DNA of 64,000 nt from an uncultured Azospirillum sp. (GTDB lineage Bacteria; Pseudomonadota; Alphaproteobacteria; RF32; CAG-239), in the NCBI GenBank assembly GCA_947301965.1, contig CAMYUM010000007.1:1-64000 (forward strand), read 5' to 3'. A program made the position numbers and the translations under genes. Below, one piece after another: positions 36,112 through 52,845 of this stretch. The first letter of the stretch is position 1. Each line of letters begins with the position of its first letter. A model generated the notes under the pieces. The model made no database searches and was not told the DNA's origin. It worked only from the letters and a program-made list of their open reading frames with translations.

Positions 36112-36187
36112 GGTCCCATCGTCTAGTGGCCTAGGACATCGCCCTCTCACGGCGGTAACGCGAGTTCGAGTCTCGCTGGGATCACCA
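36112..36187 (+). tRNA. tRNA-Glu(CTC)
   Basis: GGTCCCATCGTCTAGTGGCC...CGCCCTCTCACGGCG...GTTCGAGTCTC...GGGATCACCA, 76 nt, encoded CCA. Confidence 0.93.
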
Positions 36188-36376
36188 TTAAAAAAAGCGA
36201 CTAAATGTCGCTTTTTTTAATGGTGATGCGTAGCGAAGTTAGCATTGTGAGCCGTGCAAACGAGCGAAACAATGCTTACGCAGCAAGTGACCGAAGCGTA
36301 GTTGGTGAGCGTCCTTACGCGAACCTTACGAAGCTAGACCTCCTTATAAAAAAAAGCGACTAAATGTCGCTTTTTT
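36188..36376 (+). repeat. tRNA-linked structured repeat, locus A, between two terminator copies
   Basis: GCGACTAAATGTCGC with A/T arms at 36190-36220 and 36348-36376; intervening GCGAAGT, hairpin, CAAGTGACCGAAGCG. Confidence 0.75.
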
Positions 36377-52423: not shown

Positions 52424-52548
52424 AAGCAAGAGTTAGCAACGCAAAATCTCCGCCGATTATAATCGACGGAGATTTTATTTTAGAATAGGAAACCTTTTAT
52501 GGTGCCGGTTAAGTGACTTGAACACTCGACCCACGCATTACGAATGCG
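52424..52548. repeat. Copy 1 of direct duplication: tRNA-Thr terminator plus 3' half of tRNA-Thr(CGT)
   Basis: Near-identical to 52694..52818 at an offset of 270 bp. Confidence 0.9.
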
Positions 52549-52557
52549 CCAGAGGAA

Positions 52558-52666
52558 GACCAAACCGACTAAATGTCTGTTTGGTCGACGACGGGCGAAG
52601 TATTGTTAATTTGCGACGCCGGCAACCGCCGGCAGAGCAAATGTTACAATACAAGTGACCGAAGCG
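52558..52666 (+). repeat. tRNA-linked structured repeat, locus B
   Basis: GACCAAAC-CGACTAAATGTCT-GTTTGGTC hairpin, GCGAAGT, second multi-part hairpin, CAAGTGACCGAAGCG. Confidence 0.75.
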
Positions 52667-52693
52667 CGATAGATATAAATCTTAACACTTACA

Positions 52694-52845
<152 letters not shown>

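Follow-up and report, generated by a model that had tools for sequence, protein, structure and literature searches.

Three-hairpin elements at the tRNA genes of an alphaproteobacterial family: probable copies of a very small mobile DNA

Integrative elements that target tRNA genes (ICEs, genomic islands and prophages with attB in a tRNA) insert inside the gene, and the inserted DNA supplies the missing half, so that the tRNA is left intact and a fragment stands at the far end. Palindromic elements of Rickettsia are 100-150 nt long, non-autonomous and alphaproteobacterial, and the attC sites of integrons are DNA hairpins conserved in structure rather than sequence and arranged in tandem arrays. 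REP sequences and BIMEs, with their GTAG and CGTC superfamilies, are short non-coding palindromes, possibly moved in trans, with stems that vary in pairs; a GTAG REP is a single stem-loop of 20-40 bp with a terminal GTAG, and its stem often shows G·T pairing (PMC3733652). Here, we describe an element that resembles each of these systems in part.

The window analysed is a stretch of 64,000 nucleotides from an uncultured Azospirillum sp. (contig CAMYUM010000007.1). A sequence-only reading of it had picked out two elements, A and B, with fixed loops and linkers and covarying stems, and had proposed a new tRNA-associated repeat family, leaving open whether it acts as RNA or DNA; as checks it named a genome-wide search, a covariation test on the collected copies and a comparison with Rfam. 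The strings it quoted are all present where it placed them, among them the 12-mer CGACTAAATGTC at 36198-36209 and 52566-52577, of which a third copy, missed at the time, lies at 36357-36368. It also described the orientations correctly: A follows tRNA-Glu(CTC) and is co-oriented with it, and B precedes tRNA-Thr(CGT), which is encoded on the opposite strand. What had escaped it is that the elements are insertions carrying or duplicating part of a tRNA gene, as can be followed in the features of both copies:

36112-36187, plus strand: intact tRNA-Glu(CTC), host gene of copy A (ARAGORN and Rfam)
36181-36227, plus strand: P1 palindrome of A, made of the tRNA-Glu 3′ end, the terminator and an inverted copy of the tRNA end, loop TAAAT (from the sequence)
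36228-36338, plus strand: core of A, GCGTAGC-P2-AAGTGACCGAAGCG-P3-ACGAAGCTAGA (covariance model R1, 92.3 bits at 36225-36338)
36238-36279: P2 of A, arms 36238-36248 and 36269-36279
36285-36298, plus strand: linker AAGTGACCGAAGCG of A
36300-36327, plus strand: P3 of A
36344-36376, plus strand: second copy of the tRNA-Glu terminator, a direct repeat flanking A (repeat D7, spacing 159)
52426-52431, plus strand: GCAAGA, left of the left tRNA-Thr copy (from the sequence; a remnant by inference)
52434-52548, minus strand: partial tRNA-Thr (nt 28-76) with terminator, the left direct repeat (97% identical to 52704-52818; tRNA 76-28 reversed)
52548-52596, plus strand: P1 of B, GCCAGAGGAAGACCAAAC..GTTTGGTCGACGACGGGC, arms 52558-52565 and 52579-52586
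52595-52600, plus strand: conserved GCGNAG linker of B (GCGAAG)
52600-52652, plus strand: P2 hairpin of B, GTATTGT..ACAATAC with an inner GCCGGC stem (fold and covariation)
52653-52666, plus strand: invariant linker AAGTGACCGAAGCG of B
52667-52700, plus strand: P3 region of B, in degenerate form, with AGCAAGA as the 3′ end (model R1, 72.3 bits at 52592-52700)
52704-52818, minus strand: right direct repeat, comprising the terminator and the 3′ half of the intact tRNA-Thr
52770-52845, minus strand: intact tRNA-Thr(CGT), host gene of copy B (ARAGORN and Rfam)

A sits between the two tRNA-Glu terminator copies, and its P1 palindrome, which reads ATCACCATT..AATGGTGAT, is a reversed copy of the 3′ end of tRNA-Glu with its terminator; the same layout of P1 recurs at four other loci (L028, L032, L066 and L067). 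B is flanked by two 115-bp copies of the tRNA-Thr 3′ half with its terminator, 97% identical and spaced 270 apart, and the GCAAGA to the left of them may be the remaining 3′ end of an earlier copy of the element, an inference from the sequence. The third element copy of this genome adjoins a tRNA-Ala.

The element, of about 150-160 nt, consists of hairpin P1, GCGNA, hairpin P2, AAGTGACCGAAGCGNA, hairpin P3 and ACGNAGCAAGA, and the aligned loci share one architecture, which in full reads 5′ GCNN-GAGG, P1, CCGCAANN-GGCGNA, P2, AAGTGACCGAAGCGNA, P3, ACGNAGCAAGA 3′. The base of P3 is framed by GC..GC, with GA/GA or GNA/GNA between them, and the lengths on the two sides mostly change together; we infer that this framing represents sheared G·A pairs in tandem. 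In the 1.29-Mb genome of the window the 14-mer AAGTGACCGAAGCG is found twice, and in 36 of the 157 genomes of the same GTDB family it is found 83 times, compared with a single occurrence of the reversed control pattern. Covariance model R1, which covers the P2-P3 core and was made from copies that had been selected by motif, detects the element in 151 of these 157 genomes, with 1-23 copies in each and three in that of the window; G057, G072, G079, G096 and G119 are among those that lack it. The excess over the control and the model matches together indicate an element family and not chance.

Outside the family the element is nearly absent: the model found none in the single genome of another family of the same order, and only one of 286 other Alphaproteobacteria genomes, an even sample of the class, has it. 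These sole non-family copies (locus L294, genome G178, another alphaproteobacterial family) include one flanked on both sides by tRNA-Met pieces, the flanks holding tRNA-Met 3′ pieces and a duplicated terminator-plus-reversed-tRNA segment, a possible sign of horizontal spread or of greater age. When 85,462 species genomes were scanned with a pattern, authentic structures turned up in gut and rumen alphaproteobacterial assemblies only; matches elsewhere lack the structure, look like chance and were discarded. No match was present in the plasmid records searched. In Rfam the window yields four tRNAs only, and neither gathering thresholds nor relaxed E-values gave anything but tRNA for the element; a published description was not found either, in a search limited to open-licence papers. 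By these two measures the element has not been catalogued previously, and the novelty that the sequence-only reading had suggested stands.

How close is the bond with tRNA genes? Among 72 model matches, which were not selected for tRNA proximity, 49 lie at most 300 nt from an intact tRNA gene, compared with a chance expectation of about 2-3% that we estimate from some 45 tRNAs per 1.5 Mb, and many of the others have tRNA pieces in their flanks. These pieces derive from the neighbouring tRNA itself. In the case of tRNA-Pro, nt 1-38 stand on the left and 41-53 on the right, and in other tRNAs the 3′ part appears on both sides, inverted to the left and in forward orientation to the right. The point at which a broken piece adjoins the element is nt 38 in tRNA-Pro, nt 28 in tRNA-Thr, nt 25 in tRNA-Arg, and 41-45 or 52-53 in others; it is constant for tRNA-Pro and differs among tRNAs. 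The element takes either orientation to the tRNA, an intact copy of which is usually kept beside it at the loci examined; the flanking duplications are of variable length, and tandem arrays, with a copy every 150-270 bp or so, are repeats of the element plus a tRNA piece. An intron in the tRNA was considered and rejected, since an intact tRNA usually remains alongside and the flanking tRNA pieces are often inverted.

Several other structures were observed around these loci. A second structured repeat, AGGTTCGACTACAAG..GGCGG..CGCCGGTCGGC..GGACAATCC, occurs in the 3′ flanks of tRNA-Pro and tRNA-Glu in the same genus (L233 1740-1950, L310 700-1150); it has a reversed tRNA T-arm on one side and a tRNA 3′ end in forward orientation on the other, and appears twice in tandem in L310. 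In four genomes (G052, G053, G054 and G064; loci L022-L024, L050-L058 and L063-L065) the element is found within a multi-copy tRNA-like unit, GGGGAGC..GCTCCCCA, whose variable loop of 6-7 nt, ACTGT(N6)ACAGT, is complementary in most copies to a later strand before AAGGAG; loop and complementary strand change in step from copy to copy. Beside this unit lies a repeated ORF of about 72 aa (L051 1112-1330 and L055 1171-1389, minus strand), and the one such ORF tested had no Pfam match. At L071 and L073 (G113 and G124), where the element has no tRNA nearby, another hairpin repeat, CTCGTGTA(N)TACACGTCG, stands ahead of it, with several copies in L073.

Insertion can be seen directly where orthologous sites are compared. 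The tRNA-Pro(TGG) locus is empty in the window's own genome (G000), whereas in a sister genome (G080) it holds 250 additional bp inside the tRNA at nt 38. The left upstream flanks of the two genomes are 85% identical and the downstream flanks 92%, and the sequence upstream of the intact tRNA-Pro in G080 is unrelated to the native upstream sequence. Therefore, the insert brought the element, a new upstream region and tRNA-Pro 1-38, and an intact tRNA was left. Pro-type units of other genera have a comparable spacer. At site B, tRNA-Thr(CGT), four congeners (G084, G086, G085 and G081) are empty, with a single plain tRNA and terminator, whereas the element and the duplication are found in G000, G087 and G082. 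The copies in G000 and G082 have nearly identical linkers but differ in each of their three stems. Within any one genome, the two tRNA-Thr copies and flanking repeats resemble each other more closely than they resemble those of the other genomes, and for this reason local duplication or gene conversion cannot be separated at this site from a tRNA half borne by the element. These comparisons make gains, tandem growth and homogenisation all visible, and the inserted unit is 250-270 bp long at the two sites measured. Insertion of the element within or beside tRNA genes is shown, whereas the chemistry of its transposition is not, and the inserted unit demonstrably contains, or borders on, a copy of part of that tRNA gene; in consequence, one intact tRNA remains, with a broken tRNA piece on the other side.

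A record from human feces, MT837050.1 (L312), holds an intact tRNA-Pro and, after it, another copy (nt 28-77 with the terminator) that the element splits at 38/41. Like MT835910.1 (H3), also from human feces, which likewise carries the element or part of it, it is labelled 'Bacteriophage sp.'. Besides tRNA-Pro it has ORFs that we take to encode MetAP, RadC, GalE and UDP-galactopyranose mutase, and because of these bacterial housekeeping genes it looks like a mislabelled bacterial contig.

The defining feature of tRNA-targeting integrative elements, insertion in a tRNA gene that is kept intact by element-borne sequence, is thus met by the tRNA-Pro pair of G000 and G080. Unlike those elements, the unit described here has no genes, no integrase and no room for a gene, uses many tRNA species and several junction positions, and at tRNA-Pro supplies the 5′ half and not the 3′ half. 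It shares with REPs a GNAG-like tag at the hairpin foot, but it has three hairpins and about 150 nt, a free N in GNAG, a bond with tRNA genes, depleted G·T and no link to Y1 transposases, so that what defines a GTAG REP or REPtron is not fulfilled. Rickettsia palindromic elements and bacterial MITE-like sequences, compared by description only, are of similar size and palindromic, whereas our element targets tRNA genes with restoration of the gene and has distinct conserved linkers. It is akin to attC sites and cassette arrays in principle, as tandem DNA hairpins conserved in structure, but the attC core consensus was not found in it by eye.

The covariation noticed between A and B holds across the family; like the genome search and the comparison with Rfam, this third check supports the sequence-only reading. 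For a 44-pair structure in 37 copies the covariation score is 0.304; with shuffled partners it falls to 0.135 ± 0.009, and with slid partners it does not exceed 0.145. In a later sample of 76 distinct copies, which were aligned to the model and are hence biased towards it, the score is 0.527 (shuffled, 0.153 ± 0.007). The later sample has 504 two-sided changed cells against 28 one-sided ones (summed from the table), with a shuffled mean of 154. The outer P2 stem, parsed directly without the model, is paired in 108 of 126 cells over 21 distinct stems (shuffled, 78.7 ± 4.2). RNAalifold gave no structure on the MAFFT alignment, because the stem sequences are too variable, and the consensus structure was taken from per-sequence folds.

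RNA structures normally evolve through G·U pairs, and tRNAs from the same loci have 10% G·U in their MFE folds. In P2 and P3, on the contrary, G·T and A·C are equally depleted (observed/expected 0.20 and 0.26; 53 and 52 cells in the MAFFT alignment). This points to pairing as DNA hairpins, or to copying of one arm from the other, rather than to selection on RNA. Of the two options left open by the sequence-only reading, the DNA side is therefore favoured and the RNA side is not. A functional structured RNA, transcribed with or beside the tRNA, acting in its processing, termination or regulation and selected for its fold, would account for the strong covariation and for a common fold on the plus strand, with sense MFE below antisense MFE in 34 of 36 copies and a modest excess of G·T over A·C in P1 alone (29 against 12 cells). 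Nevertheless, we regard it as unlikely: one-sided changes are nearly absent, the folding z-scores are alike on the two strands (−4.9 and −4.4), copies occur in either orientation to the tRNA and are missing at orthologous sites, promoter scans at the elements gave nothing clearly above shuffles, and Rfam has no matching family.

Could replication errors alone, without mobility, have produced these loci? Template switching is known to make and mend stems and quasi-palindromes and has been described for RNA genes (PMC8794818). Combined with tandem duplication at hairpin-rich ends of tRNA genes, it would explain why P1 of A is an exact fold-back of the tRNA end plus terminator, why the flanks hold fold-backs such as tRNA 41-53 followed by 49-37 reversed, why junctions fall near tRNA helix boundaries and why two-sided changes dominate; the linkers would then be relics of a shared ancestral duplication. 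We think this rather improbable, given that the invariant linkers recur across 16 genera at many tRNA loci unrelated to one another, with as many as 23 in a genome, and that the tRNA-Pro unit brings non-local upstream sequence. An element of the REP/RAYT or IS200/IS605 type, moved by a Y1 tyrosine transposase, is suggested by the GCGNAG that almost every copy has at the base of P2 and of P3, with GNAG before each hairpin resembling the GTAG tag of REPs, and by Y1 transposases in 55 of the 157 genomes; these enzymes, however, are not associated with the element (they occur in 12 of the 36 genomes that have the exact core and in 43 of the 121 that lack it) and are absent from the window's own genome and from congeners with the exact core, which, with the size, three-hairpin layout and tRNA targeting unlike those of REPs, makes this origin very improbable. 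We give hardly any credence to a retroelement, in which an RNA copy would be reverse-transcribed and inserted at tRNA genes, the fold-backs being self-primed synthesis: the variable duplications and fold-back copies of tRNA segments would fit, but RVT_1 reverse transcriptases occur in only 39 of the 157 genomes, with none in the window's own, are present in four element-free ones (G057, G072, G079 and G119), and the stems are Watson-Crick only.

It seems to us probable, with considerable room for doubt, that A and B belong to a single family of very small mobile DNA elements, non-coding and non-autonomous, which reside in the tRNA genes of one alphaproteobacterial family and regenerate their target. 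Such an element would enter a tRNA gene, and the accompanying tRNA part would regenerate the intact gene; this part may permit harmless entry into an essential gene, as in larger tRNA-targeting integrative elements. The hairpins would work at the DNA level, as single strands or cruciforms, and be recognised by a trans-acting enzyme, with the fixed linkers as putative recognition sequences. Paired-arm replacement is best explained, by inference, by template switching during replication (quasi-palindrome correction), which would rewrite one arm with the other as template, the linkers being kept by selection. Against mobility count the junction positions, which are constant for tRNA-Pro but differ between tRNAs and do not readily fit a single att core, and the lack of a mobiliser: besides the Y1 transposases and reverse transcriptases, tyrosine recombinases were surveyed, and only two, presumably XerC and XerD, are present in the window's own genome and in several copy-rich genomes, additional ones elsewhere showing no link. 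No candidate mobiliser came out of these three surveys, and the enzyme is unidentified. A bolder proposal, offered only tentatively and with more doubt than belief, is that these elements constitute a new class of mobile DNA, small gene-free units of some 250 bp which enter many kinds of tRNA genes as folded single-stranded DNA hairpins, each lineage carrying the half-tRNA that repairs its target, at tRNA-Pro with its own upstream sequence, and moved by an unrecognised enzyme.

The near absence of G·U intermediates here is a caution that strong covariation alone is no proof of a functional RNA. If mobility holds, the element would offer a clean system for studying how structured DNA is recognised and how small elements persist without an enzyme of their own, and one in which to ask whether paired-arm replacement reflects selection or template switching. 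Almost all species of a gut bacterial family have it, and their tRNA genes would host, besides large islands and phages, gene-free elements of a few hundred bases that repair the gene they enter.
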